Below are positions 6,201 to 41,006 of a DNA stretch of 41,032 nucleotides, in pieces. This stretch comes from Myxococcales bacterium (GTDB lineage: Bacteria; Myxococcota_A; Polyangia; Polyangiales; Houyiibacteriaceae). A program made the position numbers and the translations under genes. Numbering within the stretch: the stretch's first letter is position 1; each line of letters starts with the position of its first letter. Where the stretch lies: NCBI GenBank assembly GCA_020351445.1, contig CP070713.1, positions 2,609,060-2,650,091 on the forward strand, given 5' to 3'. The notes below the pieces were generated by a model. The model saw only the letters and a program-made list of their open reading frames with translations. It was not told the origin of the DNA and did no database searches.

Positions 6201-7865
6201 CTCCGGCCCGATGTAGCACTCGACAGCCATGATCACTTCCTCACGAATCGAATCGATCGGCGGATTGGTGACCTGAGCAAACAGCTGCTTGAAGTAGTCA
6301 TATGCGAGTCGCGGCTGATCGCTCAGAACGGCGAGCGCCGAGTCGTTGCCCATGGACCCGACCGGATCGCGCTTCTGCTCGATCATTGGCCGCAACATGA
6401 ACTGCATCGTCTCGGTGGTGTAACCAAAGGACTGCATGCGCGGAAGAAGTGTGTCGGGGTTGAAGCCGTGCGCGTCCTCGTTCACTGGAAGCTCGGTCAG
6501 CTTGAGGCGCTGCTCGTTGAGCCACTGGCCATAGGGAAGGCGCGACGCGATGTCATTCTTGAGCTCTACGTCGGGGATCATGCGCCCCTGCTCGAAGTCG
6601 ATGAGGAACATGCGGCCGGGCTTCAGGCGGCCCTTGTGCTTCACCGTCTCGGGTGCAACTGGGAGCACGCCGACCTCCGACGCCATGATCACGCGGTCGT
6701 CGTGAGTGAGATAGTAGCGACTCGGACGAAGACCATTACGGTCGAGAACCGCACCGATGATGGTCCCGTCCGTGAAGGCAATCGAGGCAGGGCCGTCCCA
6801 CGGCTCCATCAGGCAGGAGTGGTACTCGTAGAAGTCACGCTTCACCTGCGGCATGTGGGCGTGCTTCTGCCAGGCCTCGGGGATCATCATCATCGCGGCC
6901 TCGGGCATCGAGCGCCCGTTCATGTACAAGAACTCCAGGACGTTATCGAACGTGCCAGAGTCCGACAGGCCCTCTTCCGCGACGGGGAAGAGCTTGCGGA
7001 GGTCTTCCCCGAAGAGCTCGCTTTGCACCACTCCCTGCCGGGAGTGCATCGCGTTCTTGTTACCGCGGAGGGTATTGATTTCGCCGTTGTGGCTGAGGCA
7101 ACGAAGCGGTTGCGCGCGCTCCCAGGTCGGGAAGGTGTTCGTCGCAAAGCGCGAATGCACCATCGCGAGGTGGGTCTCGAAGTCCGGGTCGGTCAGATCC
7201 CCGTAGAAGGGCAGCACTTGCTCGCAGGCAAGCATGCCCTTGTAGATGATCGTCTTGCTCGATAACGAGCACGCGTAGAGCATCCCACGCTGCTTCAGGC
7301 TCTCGTCACGGCGAAGCGGGCTCGCCGCGCTTTTGCGGATGATGTAGAGCTGCCTCTCGAACGCCTCTTGGTCGAGGCCGTCAGCCGCACCGATCAGTAG
7401 TTGCTCGATGCGCGGCATCGCCTCGAGCGCGGTCGGCCCGAGATTCGCGCCGTCGGGGTCTGTGGGCACCACGCGCCAGCCGAGAAATCGCTGCCCCTGC
7501 ATTTCGATAGCCTTCACGAACGCAGCCTTGCAGTACGCGCGCTCCTCGCTGTCGGTTGGGAGGAAGATGTTGCCGACGCCGTACTTGCCGGACTCGGGAA
7601 GATCGATGCCCAGCTCCTCTTTGGCGGCACGACGCAACAGCTTGTCCGGAACGGCGGTCAGCATGCCGGCCCCATCGCCCGTATTGGTCTCCGAGCCGCG
7701 CGCGCCGCGGTGGTCCATGTTGCAAAGAATACGGTTGGCGTCCTTGACGATTTGATGGGACGCCACGCCCTTGATCTGGGCAACGAATCCAACGCCACAC
7801 GCGTCCTTTTCGTTCGCGGGGTCGTAGAGACCGTGTTTTTCGGGGAGTCCGTACTGCATCTTCAC
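3267..7865 (-). CDS. gltB: Glutamate synthase large subunit
   Basis: This 1532-aa alpha subunit (GOGAT) makes two glutamates from glutamine and 2-oxoglutarate in the cytoplasm. The N-terminal class-II glutaminase begins at Cys23 (ACGVGF), preceded by a short propeptide that is removed in the family to free the nucleophile. The central and FMN-binding synthase domains follow, with [10 protein letters not shown] in the FMN region. The 3Fe-4S cysteines are at about 1140, 1146 and 1151 ([12 protein letters not shown]). The C-terminal GXXGXXXG beta-helix domain is present ([13 protein letters not shown]). The start is either GTG 7865 or ATG 7859. Neither has a visible Shine-Dalgarno sequence, which is odd for such a highly expressed gene. 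A strong palindrome ends 20 bp upstream. The family is regulated by Lrp in enterobacteria, and an Lrp-type gene sits just upstream here. Confidence 0.97.
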
Positions 7866-17167: not shown

Positions 17168-17929
17168 GAACGAGATCGCGCCCCGGATCACGGCCGGGTG
17201 GTTCATCACGAACGTATGGATGGCGGGCACGACGTGATGCTCGTCCGTGCCCTCCAACCGCGTCTCATCGACGGTCACCAAGCCGTCACCCCGTACGCCC
17301 GCCGCATCTCCCGCGAAGATCGCCACCGGAACGTCCGGCACCGGGAGCGTCGCGGCATAGCCTTCCGCGATTTGGCCGTAGGACGGGCCTAAGATACCGC
17401 GCATCACGCCGCCCCTGTCGAGCGAGGCGGCAAGCGACGCGCCGCGGTTCGGCGGAGCGATCATCACGATTCGTTCGACGGCCGAACGCCAGGGTGCGTC
17501 ATAGCCGAAGAGCTTTCGAACGATGAGGCCGCCCAGGCTGTGGGATGCGAACGAAAGCTTCGTCGGCGCGGGCACATGGTCGAGCAGGTCGGCAACCGTC
17601 GCCGTGTGCTCTTGAATCGGCCCTCGCGTGCTCGGGTAGTCGAGGCGAGCGGTCGTGAATCCGTTTTGCGCGAGAGCCCTGTCCAAACGGGCCATGGATC
17701 GACGCGTTCGGCCGAGACCGTGCAACAGCACGACGAGGTGGTCGGCCGGAGTGGGCGAGGGTTGCGCTCTATCGAGAGCCCGTTCGCAGTCCGCGAATGA
17801 GCCCCGATGCACGACGCGACCCGCGGGATCGAGTAGCCGATGCGCCTCCGCGTCCCAGCGACGCTGCACGCGCCAACCATCGCGCCACCGCGTATCGGCC
17901 CACAATTGCGTGCCGGCGGGCTCGATCAT
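17141..17929 (-). CDS. Alpha/beta hydrolase (lipase/PGAP1-like)
   Basis: This 262-aa protein has a unique N-terminal stretch of about 60 residues (WRVQRRWDAEAHRLLDPAGR) followed by an alpha/beta hydrolase core. LLHGLGR (68-74) forms the oxyanion strand, SHSLGG gives nucleophile Ser131, PPNRGASLAA follows the lipase pattern, and a late His in AIHTFVMNHP fits the triad. There is no signal peptide, so it acts in the cytoplasm. It probably cleaves an ester or lipid, but the substrate is unknown. ATG 17929 overlaps the upstream stop as ATGA, so the two genes are translationally coupled. The 3' end overlaps the epimerase gene. Confidence 0.87.
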   Translation of the reverse strand: MIEPAGTQLWADTRWRDGWRVQRRWDAEAHRLLDPAGRVVHRGSFADCERALDRAQPSPTPADHLVVLLHGLGRTRRSMARLDRALAQNGFTTARLDYPSTRGPIQEHTATVADLLDHVPAPTKLSFASHSLGGLIVRKLFGYDAPWRSAVERIVMIAPPNRGASLAASLDRGGVMRGILGPSYGQIAEGYAATLPVPDVPVAIFAGDAAGVRGDGLVTVDETRLEGTDEHHVVPAIHTFVMNHPAVIRGAISFLGGTPNQR

Positions 17930-19131
17930 CCGCCGAGGTCTTCGCGGAGCCGATCCTGGATCTTGTCGTCGCTCGGGTAGATCTCTTCGACATGGTCCGA
18001 GTCGACCAGCGTCGAGGTCAGCTTCTTGAGCATGTGCTTGACCGAGCGCGCATCGGAGCCGGCCGTGACGAGCTCGATCAGCAGGGCTTCTTTGCGGTCC
18101 GGGTCGAGCTCCAGCTCGCCCTGCTCCACCATCCGGTCGAGCGAAACCGACAGGGCCTGCATGAGCTTGCGCGTAAACGGGGTGTGCTGAAACGGGGGTG
18201 GCTCATCGACGAAGGCATCCACTTCGTCCGGCGCTGGGACGCTGGCCGCGGTGCGCCAACTGTCGTACCGCTCCATCCATGCGAACGCCAGCGCGGCGAG
18301 CTTCGAGTCCTCTCCCGCCGCGGTTTCGTCGATGATTCTCGGGACCTCACCGGCATGGATCGCCTGTTCGAAGTCGATCAGATGATCGACCAGTGCCCGG
18401 TGAACGGCATCCATGTCGGAGACCCCAATGTCCTCCGGCAGCTCGAGGGTGCGTGTCGCGAGGAACCTTCGTGTGAGCCAAAGTGACAAGCGCCGTTGCC
18501 ATCCGTCCTCACGGTCGACCGGAGTGCTGCTGCCGTCCGACTCGACGAGCGGCCATTGACCGCGGGATATCGCGTCCCACGCTTCGAACAAGGGCGTGTC
18601 GAGAAGCTCTTCGACGATGTAGAGGCCGGAGGTCGGCCCTTTCTCCCAATCATCATCGAGCAGTGCGGACGCGGCGCTTTGGATCTCCTGGAGCTCCGCA
18701 TCGTCGTGCTCACCCTTTGCGTGCCGCACCTGTGCAGTCATCCATCGAAGCACTCCCGTCAGATCGGAAAACTCGAGGTCACCTCGCATGCCGTCCTTGA
18801 TCGTGTAGACGCGATGGCAGCCATCCGGATCCGCGATCGTGTCCGCGAGGAAGATCAAACCTTCCAACCCAGGAGCGACAAACGGTTCGACCTCGCCAAC
18901 TTGGATCGCCCAATGCAATCGCCAAGGACGCTTGTCGTCGCCAACGGCGATCCCCGCGTACGGCGAATCGAGCAATTCCAAAAGTCGGAAACCATGGTCG
19001 GCGCCCGAGGTCATGTGCAGAAGATCGACGAACGCATCGATTCGAGACCCGCCGAGCTCGGGAGGATCCCCGGGCTGGCCGAGGGCCTCCCAGTACGCTT
19101 GTACACCCTTTAGAAACGCCTGCTGCGGCAT
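17926..19131 (-). CDS. Unrecognised acidic protein
   Basis: This 401-aa acidic, soluble protein has no signal peptide, membrane segment or catalytic motif that I can name. The N-terminal 140 residues (SGADHGFRLLELLDSPYAGI, then LEGLIFLADTIADPDGCHRV) look like an SMI1/SUKH-type alpha/beta sheet region, though the match is weak. The remainder is helical, with clusters of Asp/Glu and Trp, and a helix-rich C-terminus (DRKEALLIELVTAGSDARSV). ATG 19131 is the only upstream start in frame. It is coupled by ATGA to the downstream alpha/beta hydrolase, which suggests a joint role. The gap of 92 bp to the divergent flavin reductase must hold both promoters. Confidence 0.8.
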   Translation of the reverse strand: MPQQAFLKGVQAYWEALGQPGDPPELGGSRIDAFVDLLHMTSGADHGFRLLELLDSPYAGIAVGDDKRPWRLHWAIQVGEVEPFVAPGLEGLIFLADTIADPDGCHRVYTIKDGMRGDLEFSDLTGVLRWMTAQVRHAKGEHDDAELQEIQSAASALLDDDWEKGPTSGLYIVEELLDTPLFEAWDAISRGQWPLVESDGSSTPVDREDGWQRRLSLWLTRRFLATRTLELPEDIGVSDMDAVHRALVDHLIDFEQAIHAGEVPRIIDETAAGEDSKLAALAFAWMERYDSWRTAASVPAPDEVDAFVDEPPPFQHTPFTRKLMQALSVSLDRMVEQGELELDPDRKEALLIELVTAGSDARSVKHMLKKLTSTLVDSDHVEEIYPSDDKIQDRLREDLGG

Positions 19132-19223
19132 AGGGGCCGGAAACTAGCCCAATTTCGCCAAGGTGACAGCCCGCCGTCTACTTGAAACACGTTCTATTTT
19201 TGCCTAGACCCGTTTGATACACG

Positions 19224-36200: not shown

Positions 36201-36765
36201 GGTGGCCGCGACCCCCCTCACCGGCGAACCAGGTGCGCCCCGACTAGTCGACCTGTCGCCAAACCAACAGCTGCGGGAGCTCGAGTTCACCCTTTGCGTC
36301 GACCGGCCCAGTCTCACGGATCTCGCCAACCTCATGAAGCGGTACGGCGCGCCGGCGGCCGCTCCTCACTACTACGAACGCCTCACCGAAGCCAGCTCGA
36401 CCGCGTTGCAGCGGTTCCTGCGCGGTTACATCGACTTGATGTTCGAGTGGCAGGGCCGATGGTACGTTGCAGACTACAAATCCAACACCCTCCCTGCGTA
36501 CACGCCGAACACCGTCAACGAAGCGGTCCAACGCGAGCACTACGTGCTCCAGGCGCAGCTCTACACCGCCGCGGCACAGCGCTACCTCAAACAACGAGTC
36601 AGCGGCTACGACCCTCGGACCCACTGGGGTGGTTCGCTGTTCCTATTCTTGCGTGGAATGCAAGGCCCGGACCGCGCGGGCTCGAGCGTCTTCTTCGATC
36701 GTCAGCCTGCCGAGCTCCTGAGCGCGGTCGATTCCTGGTTAGGAGGGGGCAATGAGCCTCGCTGA
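33268..36765 (+). CDS. recB: Exodeoxyribonuclease V subunit beta (helicase-nuclease)
   Basis: This 1165-aa RecB is a 3'-5' SF1 helicase with a C-terminal nuclease that processes DNA double-strand ends and loads RecA after Chi. Helicase motifs are motif I ASAGTGKTYTI (Lys25), motif II VDEFQDTDS, motif III VGDPKQAIYAFRGAD, motif V STIHKSKGLEYG and motif VI LLYVAVTRAK. The nuclease site is complete: His935 (LLLHSILEH), Asp1056 (YIDLMFEW), Asp1069 and Lys1071 (ADYKSN), with the same 13- and 2-residue spacing as in E. coli. It should therefore be an active nuclease. It starts inside the recC stop (ATGA) and overlaps recD by 14 bp. Confidence 0.97.
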   Translation: MSAVAPELVSLDAPTLVEASAGTGKTYTITTYFVRAILERGLMPEQILVVTYTKAATAELRVRSRKRILQAIALLDDPSEEPDALHEVVSKAVARLGRHGAEDRLRNALSQMDQASIMTIHGFCQRLLQDHPLLFGIDFDFEVAQDVASMYSELAVDFWATDLYDKPDWLLRTLDAKNVGTDHLAKLANVAMMPGTEIIGPQSRNASEEAVGKWLVLRREAAKLWAAERETICEILLTYQGLNKRSYNPKTLNRTWRPDLDDFFSEAGFRSLPEFFCKLAQGRMVMKRGFEEPRHRFFEACALLSDADEALAPALNHAVFAFQQRFLDFARSRTWRRREEAAVLTYDDLLTTVYAPFDPSRASASPFDRDLIARTILNEHPLALVDEFQDTDSVQYGIFHAIYGDGSAVYVGDPKQAIYAFRGADVFSYIGAAADVGERKHSLKTNRRSDPGVVRAVNALFSSRKPAFILEDIGFEPAVAHEKKNRSSFDPSMEVVFLGERELQGPIAQAVAPIVANEIAHLLRSDAKIEKRPVEAGDVAVLCRSNNQAIEVTKALRARGIAASLDGDASVLNTDIASDLRAVLEATLMPGDSRAVRRALLTSLLGISPYELATISDEMWSEWMSRFRDWNETWHSQGVLRFLEDMLRSTGAEIRIASQPTARRQLTDLIHIEELLLRGERERRRDPIALMQWFRRLDEGTPDQGAVASEDLQQRPDAQSGAVRISTIHKSKGLEYGIVYCPFTWNDASLWKFDKVAVKFHDEHGNVKIDLGSADRDAHLQASEQEALSEALRLLYVAVTRAKYRCTLFWGPGSNWKSSALGYLLHGSEALGKLDQEEMRKDVVALATASSGAIGCRSSHGEQAAPPEHEPSAAVLMARAQTRRFGHAPRIASFTSLTGHDEKTPGPRGMAALADSESALFTDLPGGVRTGLLLHSILEHANFQKLDGDETKRLIERQLRGFGFDASLAPTVQRDLQSVAATPLTGEPGAPRLVDLSPNQQLRELEFTLCVDRPSLTDLANLMKRYGAPAAAPHYYERLTEASSTALQRFLRGYIDLMFEWQGRWYVADYKSNTLPAYTPNTVNEAVQREHYVLQAQLYTAAAQRYLKQRVSGYDPRTHWGGSLFLFLRGMQGPDRAGSSVFFDRQPAELLSAVDSWLGGGNEPR

Positions 36766-38458
36766 CCTTCGCGAACGGGGCCTCATCGACCTGCTCGACC
36801 TTGAGCTCGCGCGCGCCCTCGGCCGCATGACCGGCTCCCCGAACCCCGACGTCGAGCTGGCGATCGCACTCACGAGCCGTAACGTCCGTCGGGGCCACAC
36901 CTGCTTTCCTGTCGGGATGTCGGCCGCAGACATCTGGCCCCGCGACGCGGTGCCCCCGGACGCGCTACCTGACACAGAGCACTGGAAAGACGCACTGACG
37001 AACAGCCGACTTACGCAGGAAGGGCCACTGGTGCTGGATTCCGTCGGCCGCCTCTACCTCCGACGCTATTGGCAGCTCGAGCAGGACATCGCAGAAGAGC
37101 TTGCAGCGCGATCCGCCATTCCTCCCGCGATCACAGGCGATCTTGATGCTTCGCTCGGTCGGTTGTTTCCGGGAGCTCCTGACTCCCCGCAACGCCGCGC
37201 TGCGCACAATGCGCTGAACCATCGCGTCTCCCTCCTTTGCGGTGGGCCGGGCACGGGCAAGACGACAACCGTAGCAGCGATTGCGGCGCTCATCATCGAA
37301 GCAAGGCTGCTCGAGACGGGAACCTTACCTCGAGTGGCGTTGCTCGCCCCGACTGGCAAGTCTGCCGCGCGATTGGGGGAAGCGGTGCGCGAAGCGAAGA
37401 GCCGAATTCAAGCCTCGGCCGAGGTACTCGAACAGATCCCGGAGCAGGCCATGACCATGCACCGCGCGCTCGGGATGCAACGAGAAGGCATGCGCTTTCG
37501 GCGCAACGCCGACTTTCCGCTCGAAGCCGATGTAGTCGTCGTCGATGAAGCCTCTATGATCGACCTCGGCCTGATGCGACAGTTGCTGCACGCCACATCA
37601 CGCGAAGCCACACTTCTTATCGTTGGCGACCCCGATCAGCTCACGTCCGTCGAAGCGGGCTCGGTTCTTCGCGACCTGGTCAGCGCCAGCACGGAGACTT
37701 GGTGGCACGGGCGAGTCTCCCACTTGAGCAAGACCTATCGATACGACGAGAGACAAGCTCTCGGTCAGCTGGTTGCGGCAATCCGAAACGGCGAAGCGGC
37801 GACGGTCGCGGCCTTGCTCGAAGATGAAGAGGCCGATGATGTCGCCTGGGTGTCGCTCGAAGGCTTGCAGCCTGAGCTCGATCGTGCGGCCAAGCACTGG
37901 TGCAACGTGCTGCGCACGCGCAAGCCAGAGGAGCATTTCGAGCTTCGAAGCGGTTTCGTGGTGCTCAGCCCGTTCCGAAGAGGCCCGGTTGGCACTCGGC
38001 AGCTCAGCGCGGCGATTCGGGATAGGTTGCTAGGCCTGGACGGCAGTGCACTAGATACGACGCCGATCATCATCGAGGAGAACAGTCACGAGCTTCGCGT
38101 GTACAACGGAGATTTCGCCATGTTGGTCGACGGCGAGCCACGCACTGCCGTGGTGCAGAGCGATCCGGGGGAGCCTCGCCGGATCGCCGAAGCGAGGCTA
38201 CCGCGGTTCTCCGATGCGTTCGCGCTGAGCGTCCACAAAGCTCAGGGTTCGGAGTTCGACGAAGTGCTGATCGTTCTTCCGGAGCAAGACGCGCCGATGT
38301 TGACCCGCGAGCTTCTGTACACGGCCGTGAGCCGCGCTCGGAAACGCGTACGACTCGTTGGCCCCCAAAGCACCGTCGCGGCGGCCCTCGCACGACGCGC
38401 GCAGCGTCACTCCGGACTGCAAGACGCGATCAAGAACGCGATCAGAAACCCGAGCTAG
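36752..38458 (+). CDS. recD: Exodeoxyribonuclease V subunit alpha (5'-3' helicase)
   Basis: This 568-aa RecD is the fast 5'-3' motor of RecBCD. Motifs are Walker A GGPGTGKTTTV (Lys170), Walker B VVVDEASMIDLGLM, motif III VGDPDQLTSVEAGSVLRDL, HLSKTYRY, and the late SVHKAQGSEFDEVLIVLP and LLYTAVSRARKRV. The N-terminal domain (about 1-120) contacts RecC. Length is close to E. coli RecD (608 aa), and lacking the longer N-terminal extension of RecD2 it is the RecBCD-bound type. ATG 36752 lies within recB, preceded by GGAGG a few bases upstream. The stop codon overlaps that of the small gene on the opposite strand. Confidence 0.96.
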   Translation: MSLADLRERGLIDLLDLELARALGRMTGSPNPDVELAIALTSRNVRRGHTCFPVGMSAADIWPRDAVPPDALPDTEHWKDALTNSRLTQEGPLVLDSVGRLYLRRYWQLEQDIAEELAARSAIPPAITGDLDASLGRLFPGAPDSPQRRAAHNALNHRVSLLCGGPGTGKTTTVAAIAALIIEARLLETGTLPRVALLAPTGKSAARLGEAVREAKSRIQASAEVLEQIPEQAMTMHRALGMQREGMRFRRNADFPLEADVVVVDEASMIDLGLMRQLLHATSREATLLIVGDPDQLTSVEAGSVLRDLVSASTETWWHGRVSHLSKTYRYDERQALGQLVAAIRNGEAATVAALLEDEEADDVAWVSLEGLQPELDRAAKHWCNVLRTRKPEEHFELRSGFVVLSPFRRGPVGTRQLSAAIRDRLLGLDGSALDTTPIIIEENSHELRVYNGDFAMLVDGEPRTAVVQSDPGEPRRIAEARLPRFSDAFALSVHKAQGSEFDEVLIVLPEQDAPMLTRELLYTAVSRARKRVRLVGPQSTVAAALARRAQRHSGLQDAIKNAIRNPS

Positions 38459-38634
38459 GCAGCCTGAGGCGGCCAGGGTCGGCGAATCTTGCCCGCCACC
38501 TGGGCGGCTGTCTCATCATCGATCGGTTGCGTCGGGTCCTTGCCGAGCTGTTTCAGGATCACCTTGCAGTGAGCCGGATTCCAGTTGAGAAGCTTCGCGA
38601 GCTCCCTGAGTTCGTAAGTCTCGGTAACAACCAT
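38455..38634 (-). CDS. Small 59-aa protein, IF2-N/winged-helix-like
   Basis: This short gene is missed by a 60-codon cut-off. The protein begins MVVTETYELRELAKLLNWNP and continues with a CKVILKQLGKDPTQPIDDET segment before a Pro-rich end. The YELxELAKxLxxxxxxxxxxLKxLG layout resembles the small helical IF2 N-terminal domain, used for protein or RNA contacts. This is a pattern match only. Support for a real gene is as follows: GGAAG lies about 6-8 nt before the ATG, and a sigma70-like promoter (38661-38689) sits in the short AT-rich gap behind it. Codon use also looks normal. Its stop overlaps the recD stop by 4 bp tail-to-tail. No function is assigned. Confidence 0.7.
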   Translation of the reverse strand: MVVTETYELRELAKLLNWNPAHCKVILKQLGKDPTQPIDDETAAQVAGKIRRPWPPQAA

Positions 38635-38660
38635 GGTGCGCTTCCTTTACTAACCGTAAA

Positions 38661-38689
38661 TTTATAGCGCAAAACCGCGGCGAGTCCAA
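38661..38689 (-). promoter_or_regulatory. Sigma70-like promoter of the 59-aa gene
   Basis: On the minus strand TTGGAC (38689-38684) and TATAAA (38666-38661) are separated by exactly 17 bp. Transcription would start near 38654, about 20 nt before the ATG at 38634, leaving room for the ribosome site only. The 58-bp gap (38635-38692) is strikingly AT-rich against its neighbours. Confidence 0.6.
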
Positions 38690-38692
38690 GCC

Positions 38693-39049
38693 TTATTTGC
38701 CATTCAGTAAATAAGCCACAACTCCGAGCAAACTCAATAATATCAGCGTGATGAGCAACCAACCTGGTCCGCGGACCCCCGGAGCGGGGCTAGAATCCGG
38801 TGGAGGCGCAATTGGCGGCCCTTCCACGGGCTGGGCGGCCAGGAATTCCTCGATGAGTCGGGTCGCCTTTTCGACCTGGTCGAGCTCTACACGAATTTCC
38901 GTTCCATGCCGCAGCCGGTCGGTGATGCCCGGGTAGGCGGTGTCGCGGTGATTGACCAGGACTGCGGCGATCCCCTCCGACTCCAAGGCTTCCTGCAGGG
39001 CCAGAGCCTGCACCTCGTCGTCGGTCTCGTAGACGTTTCGTGTCTCCAT
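38693..39049 (-). CDS. DUF2007-type small membrane protein
   Basis: This 118-aa protein has an N-terminal domain of about 70 residues of the putative signal-transducing DUF2007 kind (VYETDDEVQALALQEALESE, GIAAVLVN, TEIRVELDQVEKATRLIEEF). This is an alpha/beta ferredoxin-like fold whose role is not known. A Pro-rich linker follows, then one C-terminal membrane helix (WLLITLILLSLLGVVAYLL, about 96-114) with a tiny tail, so the domain faces the cytoplasm from a tail anchor. ATG 39049 has GAGGTAG upstream, and a longer frame to 39166 runs back into the protease gene. It starts 4 bp after the M48 protease stop, so the two are co-transcribed and may form a membrane pair. Confidence 0.85.
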   Translation of the reverse strand: METRNVYETDDEVQALALQEALESEGIAAVLVNHRDTAYPGITDRLRHGTEIRVELDQVEKATRLIEEFLAAQPVEGPPIAPPPDSSPAPGVRGPGWLLITLILLSLLGVVAYLLNGK

Positions 39050-39053
39050 GCTG

Positions 39054-41006
39054 CTACCTCGATTGCACAAAAGGCGGCACGGGACAATCGAGCGCATCGC
39101 CGATGGCACGAATGAGCTCGGCCTCGCGATCGGTAACGTTGTCGTCAGCCATGACCGTCGCTGCACAGGCCAAGATGAGATCCCGCTTCAGTGCGGGTGC
39201 TGCCGCATCGTAGCGTTGAAGGGCGCGATCAACCGCGGCCAAGGTGCATCCGCCCGAAGGCAAGAGCACTCCTGCGGATTCCTTTAGCTGGAGGGTCTGC
39301 GCACCGTGCCGAAAGGCGTGCTCTGCTTCGTCTTCGGTCCGGCTACCTACCCGTGCCAGCGTCGCAATCAGCACGCGCGCGTCGGGTATGAGAGTACGCA
39401 GCGAGCGATACCGAACCGGCGTCGGACCAGCGCCTTCGAAGTGCCGGGCGAGATGGCGCTGGATCATCCGGCTCAGCGTGTATTCGAACAAATCGATTCG
39501 TCGGTCGCTCTGCATCAAGACGTCGACCACTTCGGCAAAACGCCGGTACTCGTCGACCGACAAGCCGCGCAACGTTGGCATCGCCATGTCGACCAGCGCG
39601 ATCTTCTCGCCTGACGAACGGTCTCCTGCCTCCGAATGAAAGCGAAGCGCCAGGTCGGCAGTCTGCGGATCGGTCAGTTCGGCCAGACGTAGCAGCTCGG
39701 TCCCACGTAGCACCTCGTCGTGCGCGAGCAGGAGGCCAAACACCATCGCCTGCGCCATCGGCGCTTGGTGAACGGCATGGATCCAGAGCTCGGGCAGCGC
39801 CGCATGAAGAGAGCGCGCAAACGTGATCTGCTCTGGACGAGGGCTCCCGATGTGTTGGATGGCTTGGCTCACCGCTTCTTCGGTCGGGGCTTCGGCAAAG
39901 GCGTTCAGCTCGTCCGGGGGCGCATCGGGCGGCGTGCTCATCCCGTCGGCGATCTCGGGCAGGGCCACCTCGGTGAACTCGCCGTCCCACTGGGGCTCCA
40001 GCTTGCGAATGCGATCCCCCAAGCGGGGATGCGTGCGGAAGACCCCGGTGAACAACCGCAAACGACGAATCGCATCCGAAAAAAAGATGTGGCTCGCTTC
40101 GTCGGCCTTTGGAGTGTCGAGGTACGAGTGAGGCGTCGCGCCGCCGATCTTCTTGAGGGCACCGACCAGGCCGTCGGTGTCGCGCGTGAACTGCACCGCC
40201 GATGCATCGGCGAGAAGCTCCCGCTGTCGCGAAATCGCACTCTGAATCATGCGTCCGAAGAAAACGCCAATGGAGCCTATCGCGAGCAAACCGAGGCCGA
40301 TCAGCACCACGCCGCTGCTTTCCTTCCGGCTTCTGTACATGGAGCTGCGGGTCAGAAATCGACCGATTAGAGCCACGAGAAAGATCCCGTGAAGGAGCCC
40401 GATGGCGCGAAGATTGATGCGCGAGTCTCCGTTCAGGATGTGGCTGAATTCGTGTGCGATCACGCCCTGCAGCTCGTCGCGGCGGAGCAAGTGCAGGGTC
40501 CCGTGCGTGACGCCGACGACGGCATCGCTGGTCGTGTTCCCCGCGGCAAACGCATTGATGCCGGGCTCCCGATCGAGGACATACACATCGGGAACGGGCA
40601 CGCCGGATGCAATTGCCATCTCCTCGACAACATTTAGCAGGCGGCGCTCCTCGAGCTTGGTCGAGTCAGGATCCACCTGGCGCCCCCCGAGGCTCAGGGC
40701 GACGGCGGATCCGCCGTCCCGCAGCTGCGCCACCTTGTAGAGAGACCCCAAGCCGACGACGATGACAGTGCCGCCAAGCGCGGCAAGGAACACGCCGGGG
40801 TTCCAGAAAGAGAGAGCGAGCTCGCGTACGTTGTCGTAGTCGCCAACCATGTACGCGAGCCCGGGGGCTTCATTTGCAACGGCGGTGTACAAGATCATTG
40901 CGAGGACATAGACCGCGGCGATGACGCCGACTACGGCAACCGCGAAGAGAAGCACCAACTGTAGGGTGCGCTTGCGGGCCAGAGCCTGCTCCTCGAAAAA
41001 ATCCAT
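39054..41006 (-). CDS. M48-family (HtpX-like) membrane zinc metalloprotease with large C-terminal extension
   Basis: This 650-aa integral membrane protease has membrane helices at about 14-40 and 70-90, then a cytoplasmic catalytic domain. Its HEFSH motif gives His185, Glu186 and His189, and the third zinc ligand is Glu263 in RELLADASA. Two more helices lie at about 203-217 and 232-252. Up to about residue 330 it follows HtpX, which degrades misfolded membrane proteins. HtpX is only about 290 aa, and this protein has some 300 extra cytoplasmic residues. The last 60 residues (LILACAATVMADDNVTDREA, ELIRAIGDALDCPVPPF) look like a TerB-type helical domain. ATG 41006 begins the first amphipathic segment. 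It is followed after 4 bp by the DUF2007 gene. Confidence 0.92.
   Translation of the reverse strand: MDFFEEQALARKRTLQLVLLFAVAVVGVIAAVYVLAMILYTAVANEAPGLAYMVGDYDNVRELALSFWNPGVFLAALGGTVIVVGLGSLYKVAQLRDGGSAVALSLGGRQVDPDSTKLEERRLLNVVEEMAIASGVPVPDVYVLDREPGINAFAAGNTTSDAVVGVTHGTLHLLRRDELQGVIAHEFSHILNGDSRINLRAIGLLHGIFLVALIGRFLTRSSMYRSRKESSGVVLIGLGLLAIGSIGVFFGRMIQSAISRQRELLADASAVQFTRDTDGLVGALKKIGGATPHSYLDTPKADEASHIFFSDAIRRLRLFTGVFRTHPRLGDRIRKLEPQWDGEFTEVALPEIADGMSTPPDAPPDELNAFAEAPTEEAVSQAIQHIGSPRPEQITFARSLHAALPELWIHAVHQAPMAQAMVFGLLLAHDEVLRGTELLRLAELTDPQTADLALRFHSEAGDRSSGEKIALVDMAMPTLRGLSVDEYRRFAEVVDVLMQSDRRIDLFEYTLSRMIQRHLARHFEGAGPTPVRYRSLRTLIPDARVLIATLARVGSRTEDEAEHAFRHGAQTLQLKESAGVLLPSGGCTLAAVDRALQRYDAAAPALKRDLILACAATVMADDNVTDREAELIRAIGDALDCPVPPFVQSR

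Follow-up and report, generated by a model that had tools for sequence, protein, structure and literature searches.

Several described systems lie close to the gene studied here. BldC, RacA and the DNA-binding domain of pSK1 Par are MerR-type or small single-domain winged helices, and in MerR-type proteins the winged helix at the N-terminus is followed by a dimerisation helix and an effector domain. A similar N-domain (IF2_N, PF04760) is carried by the translation factor IF2 together with its GTPase domain. CbpM acts on CbpA by protein contact. With regard to gene context, the nearest parallel is the KstR regulon, whose core motif in actinobacteria is given as TnnAACnnGTTnnA (PMC1995591).

The locus compared with these systems is found in a 41,032-nt stretch of the genome of a Myxococcales bacterium (contig CP070713.1), referred to here as the window, and consists of a 59-codon open reading frame (sORF) at the end of recD. 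The product of the sORF resembles BldC, RacA and pSK1 Par in its predicted beta-H-H-beta-H arrangement (structural alignment Z 4.1-6.7), but it is 8-21% identical to them over the aligned part and has no effector or coiled-coil domain. Its structural elements are predicted to follow the order found in IF2_N, to which it gives weak profile matches and Z values of up to 6.3; it differs in being a stand-alone protein of 59 aa that falls below the Pfam cut-off, ends in an RxWPP tail and is present in three genera only. Like members of a KstR regulon, the sORF copies of sister genera have a KstR motif upstream and sit beside steroid or lipid genes, whereas the copy in the window has no KstR site within 300 nt upstream and KstR itself is, unlike the sORF product, a TetR-type repressor. 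The features of the locus are listed in Table 1.

Table 1. Features at the sORF locus, in window coordinates
Feature	Position	Strand	Evidence
recD, convergent neighbour outside the sORF unit	36752..38458	+	RecD_N and AAA domains; adjacency broken in 8/17 loci
59-aa protein-coding gene (small winged-helix-like protein, predicted; conserved RxWPP tail)	38455..38634	-	ORF, 18/18 other genus genomes, dN/dS, models
Conserved 26-nt block TATAAATTTACGGTTAGTAAAGGAAG: -10, probable transcription start region, ribosome site	38641..38666	-	91% identity, 19 loci
Ribosome site AAAGGAAG	38641..38648	-	
Candidate operator TTTACGGTTAGTAAA, an imperfect palindrome lying between -10 and ATG	38646..38660	-	TTWACNGTTAGTAAA once per genome, 5/5 searched
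TATAAA, -10	38661..38666	-	
TTGGAC, -35-like hexamer (3/6 consensus positions)	38684..38689	-	TTGG 17-18 nt from TATWA in 17/19 loci
DUF2007 protein gene, co-directional neighbour; hydrophobic and probably membrane segment at the C-terminus	38693..39049	-	PF09413 E 1.1e-8; adjacent in 19/19 genus loci
M48 peptidase gene, upstream, co-directional	39054..41006	-	PF01435 E 1.2e-29; syntenic

Coding status of the sORF

The sORF begins with ATG and encodes MVVTETYELRELAKLLNWNPAHCKVILKQLGKDPTQPIDDETAAQVAGKIRRPWPPQAA, a protein of approximately 6.5 kDa. At their stops the sORF and recD overlap by four bases (38455-38458), the two genes lying tail to tail, and the clean frame described in an earlier, sequence-only reading of this DNA is found as stated. 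The homologue comparison proposed in that reading was run, and the frame is conserved in all 18 other genomes of the genus. For every one of the 171 pairs that the 19 genus sequences form, pS is larger than pN, with a pooled pN/pS of 0.25 and a median dN/dS of about 0.14 (0.135, from the 166 pairs that give a finite value). Variable codon columns number 52 of 58 at third positions compared to 23 of 58 at second positions, while the frame itself is open in 19/19 loci and every other frame is interrupted by stops, either in all loci or in a part of them.

The very strong nucleotide conservation immediately upstream could point to a chance frame lying across a conserved non-coding element, but the excess of change at third positions, the uniform direction of pS over pN and the single open frame make this a scarcely credible explanation. 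Because the sORF is present in every other genome of the genus and displays a coding-type substitution pattern, it is counted as real; judged by these comparisons it is a genuine protein-coding gene under strong purifying selection. The earlier reading is supported in that the small, easily overlooked gene is real, provided with its own promoter and independent of recD.

Across all 22 members identified, the products range from 59 to 66 aa with pI values from 6.0 to 9.6. Their alignment shows Y7, L9, L12, L16, A43, V46, A47, R52 and W54-P56 to be invariant, and positions 24 and 28 to be occupied by Lys or Arg in each of the 22.

Promoter and leader

Reading toward the start codon, the promoter consists of TTGGAC, a 17-nt spacer and TATAAA, followed by the ribosome site, which had been correctly recognised from the sequence. 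The same reading had called the promoter near-ideal. Its elements are indeed present and conserved in 17 of the 19 genus loci, but the promoter is not near-ideal, since TTGGAC agrees with the consensus TTGACA at only three of six positions and a sigma-70 scan of positions 37500-40000 reported no sites, with 0.5 expected.

The 26-nt leader, from TATAA through the ribosome site, has a mean pairwise identity of 91% with 19 of its 26 columns invariant, compared to 57% at the third positions of the sORF codons and 74% across the end of the DUF2007 gene. This block has one copy in its own genome at up to three mismatches, and TTWACNGTTAGTAAA (up to one mismatch) is likewise single, always at the sORF, in the five genus genomes searched. 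A regulon of such leader elements was rejected, as there is one copy per genome in those searched. The sequence fits a compact promoter-leader possessing a dedicated candidate operator. An RNA hairpin at TTTAC-n5-GTAAA, judged by eye, was also rejected; the left arm reads TTAAC in 9 of the 19 loci with no matching change in the right arm, and so pairing is not preserved.

It should be mentioned that the end of the DUF2007 gene (38693-38760), directly upstream of the -35 hexamer, contains AT-rich leucine codons. This AT-rich stretch could double as an UP element.

Distribution of the family

A single-protein search of 57 related genomes identified the sORF at E 2e-23 or better in all 19 genomes of the genus, its own included, and at E 5e-7 or better in three further genomes of the same family. 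Some match was obtained in 37 of the 57, the remaining weak ones (E above 0.02) being discarded. With a profile of the 22 members, 22 of 183 genomes of the order gave a match at E 0.001 or better, these being the same 22 as before, and of 377 genomes sampled from the phylum 14 matched at E 0.01 or better, of which 12 were already known and two were marginal (G311 and G346, E 0.007-0.01). The latter two were not accepted as members, as their matches sit within frames of over 800 aa; at a guess they are IF2. The viral contigs and plasmids searched hold no relative of the sORF, and a phage or plasmid origin was rejected on this basis. Within the genomes covered, the sORF is restricted to three genera of the family.

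An NCBIfam search returned only single weak matches (best E 0.018) and nothing convincing was found on comparing the profile with PDB sequences (best E 0.1). A literature search at the level of titles and abstract openings found no paper on the 59-aa protein. As a family the sORF product is new, while it is a known kind of protein.

Predicted fold and relation to known families

Structure prediction, also proposed in the earlier reading, was performed with AlphaFold for the window protein (pLDDT 79.6, pTM 0.57) and for the homologue of the sister-genus genome G021 (pLDDT 86.1, pTM 0.65). Both models have the order strand-helix-helix-strand-helix, a predicted nucleic-acid-binding fold. Foldseek gave no match at E 0.001 or better with either. 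With VIA-align the highest score was obtained for the DNA-binding domain of pSK1 Par, with Z 6.5 (rmsd 2.4, 48 aligned) for the window protein and 6.7 (rmsd 2.4, 49 aligned) for the G021 homologue, and not far below it came IF2 (6.3 and 5.9), RacA (5.2 and 5.9), NmlR (3.7 and 5.8), BldC (4.1 and 4.5) and other MerR-type domains; the best rows are mostly DNA-binding winged helices, and all Z values are under 8, which according to the tool may reflect just a common arrangement. The product is likely a winged helix (beta-H-H-beta-H) similar to those of MerR, RacA and IF2-N, but with scores so close together and all below 8 no single family is favoured. The predicted fold would fit the N-terminal winged helix of the MerR family (Z up to 5.8). 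No MerR Pfam match was found, and at 59-66 aa all 22 members lack the dimerisation helix and effector domain that follow it in MerR-type proteins.

The IF2-N-like pattern noted earlier from the sequence was overstated. Weak matches to IF2_N occur in 13 of the 22 members (best E 0.00078), but the window protein (E 0.013) scores 15.7 bits against a curated Pfam cut-off of 25.3 and its membership in IF2_N was rejected. Alignment by hhalign to the N-domain of the genome's own IF2, which is encoded elsewhere, extends over 49 columns with a probability of only 14.5%. A protein consisting of the IF2 N-domain fold alone, and binding the ribosome or RNA, would account for these matches and for the place of IF2 chains among the VIA-align results. 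Yet the sORF is a free-standing frame with no IF2 G domain, and its clade-restricted distribution and the regulon context described below suit a regulator more than a general translation factor, so that this alternative is considered unlikely. An RNA- or ribosome-binding factor independent of recD had also been proposed; its independence stands, while the RNA or ribosome role is less favoured, given the missed IF2_N cut-off and the equal scores of DNA-binding winged helices.

Gene neighbourhood within the genus

In each of the 19 genus loci the DUF2007 gene precedes the sORF on the same strand, and the M48 gene lies ahead of DUF2007 in all but L008, where the contig ends inside DUF2007. Between the stop of DUF2007 and the start of the sORF there are 58-60 nt in 18 loci, and in L007 the alignment indicates the usual spacing. 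This adjacent, co-directional and almost fixed arrangement would suit an adaptor or inhibitor working by protein contact, for instance with the M48 protease or the DUF2007 protein, and the presence of CbpM among the Foldseek and VIA-align matches and the conserved RxWPP tail are in keeping with it. Such a role nevertheless appears improbable, as the sORF is kept in sister genera outside any M48-DUF2007 neighbourhood and a search at E 1e-5 detected DUF2007 in none of the 14 other genomes of the family, the sister genera among them.

On the other side, recD directly adjoins the sORF in 9 of the 17 loci that are named, and this convergent placement had led to the suggestion of a link to RecBCD. 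Against a role as an accessory of RecBCD recombination or repair, the sORF is encoded on the strand opposite to recD, and in the other eight loci (L034, L036, L038, L040, L043, L044, L046 and L047) a gene for a GMC oxidoreductase, identified by a Pfam run on one of the eight, separates the two. In L043 the M48, DUF2007 and sORF genes are kept while RecD is recognisable only by its C-terminal part, residues 427-563 (6814-7224), and RecB and RecC were not found in the 10-kb locus; this finding is weak by itself, since the genome is rated 66% complete. No match to RecB, RecC or RecD was detected in the roughly 3 kb that surround the sister-genus copies (three loci) or in 16 kb of G021, and the sORF neighbours there are different. 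The link was rejected by synteny, the intervening GMC gene and the differing sister-genus neighbours leaving it a minimal likelihood, and to judge by the tail-to-tail position beside recD alone would have been misleading. The GMC oxidoreductase gene itself (at 5267-6886 in L034) varies in presence within the one genus.

Sister genera and KstR-type sites

In two of the three sister-genus copies (G021 and G029) the sORF and a 3beta-hydroxysteroid dehydrogenase gene meet tail to tail, and in the third (G026) the sORF and an acyl-CoA dehydrogenase gene are divergently oriented. A match to the KstR core begins 30 nt (G021) and 26 nt (G029) upstream of the sORF start codon, and in G026 a match with one mismatch is found 61 nt upstream. 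None of the 19 genus copies has such a site within 300 nt upstream (263 nt covered for L008), and by this test the steroid tie does not extend to the sORF of the window. As judged from sites and neighbouring genes, a steroid or lipid tie of the sORF is shown for the sister genera only. In G021 (L049, 8120-8330) the KstR-like site at the sORF promoter sits between the inverted-repeat arms CTCGAAGT and ACTTCGAG.

Allowing one mismatch and counting palindromic sites twice, TNGAACACGTTCTA is matched 28 times in G021 (reversed control 1), 12 times in G026 (control 4) and 10 times in G029 (control 2). Five genus genomes together have 59 against 20, the window's own genome having just 10 against 6, and 11 genomes of the family without the sORF have 34 against 41. 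The motif TAGAACACGTTCTA is seen ahead of KshA and other steroid or lipid genes in G021, G026 and G029 (L071-L097) and in the window's own genome (L118-L120), in the latter at two KshA genes, an FAD/2Fe-2S reductase gene and an NMO gene. A survey of 20 proteins picked from 14 of 27 site loci found KshA, nitronate-monooxygenase-like, acyl-CoA dehydrogenase, GMC oxidoreductase, P450, FAD_binding_2, WS/DGAT and AMP-ligase proteins; others had no Pfam match or were seemingly unrelated (peptide deformylase, PRA isomerase, isocitrate dehydrogenase, TPR, 7TMR-DISM). From these sites, a KstR-type steroid catabolism regulon seems to be present in these Myxococcota. A term search of PMC4810484 returned no mention of Deltaproteobacteria or myxobacteria. 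Within the window, a KstR-core site TGAAACACGTTCTA occurs at 19183-19196, upstream of a 401-aa ORF (17926-19131, minus strand) with no Pfam match.

KshA_C is detected in 28 of 33 genomes of the family at E 1e-10 or better, and at E 2.6e-38 or better in 22/22 sORF carriers and none of the 11 non-carriers (best 2.2e-34). As the carriers may be one clade, this co-occurrence may reflect shared ancestry.

A possible small DNA-binding regulator

The best reading of the sORF product is that of a small single-domain DNA-binding transcriptional regulator, to which an even chance is given, its DNA binding and targets being inferred. The protein would bind DNA by its second helix, with the basic positions 24 and 28, probably as a dimer. 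Ancestrally it may have served steroid or lipid catabolism and in this genus would have been rewired to its own promoter beside the M48-DUF2007 pair, with TTWACNGTTAGTAAA as the first candidate operator, for autoregulation. The regulator reading draws on the presence of the gene throughout the genus with its low dN/dS, on the agreement of the two AlphaFold models, on the lead of DNA-binding winged helices in VIA-align and the Lys or Arg at both basic positions, on the conserved promoter and a leader element unique in each of five genomes, and on the KstR-type sites upstream in sister genera and the co-occurrence of KshA_C with carriers. It is weakened by the lack of a Foldseek match, the Z values under 8 and the wide range of pI, as well as by the absence of KstR-core sites from the genus copies and the small excess of the motif in the window's own genome.

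A fuller account, offered as speculation and unlikely, is that of an undescribed micro-regulator family in a steroid-degrading myxobacterial clade, which would have begun as a KstR-controlled, DNA-binding protein tuning steroid or lipid catabolism and in this genus would later have come under an autoregulated operator, present in a single copy, next to a membrane-protease pair. If the sORF product is a regulator, the single-copy leader element offers a direct and cheap test of autoregulation. The sORF represents a small, selectively maintained protein family of an uncultured myxobacterial clade, unrecognised by the Pfam and NCBIfam libraries.
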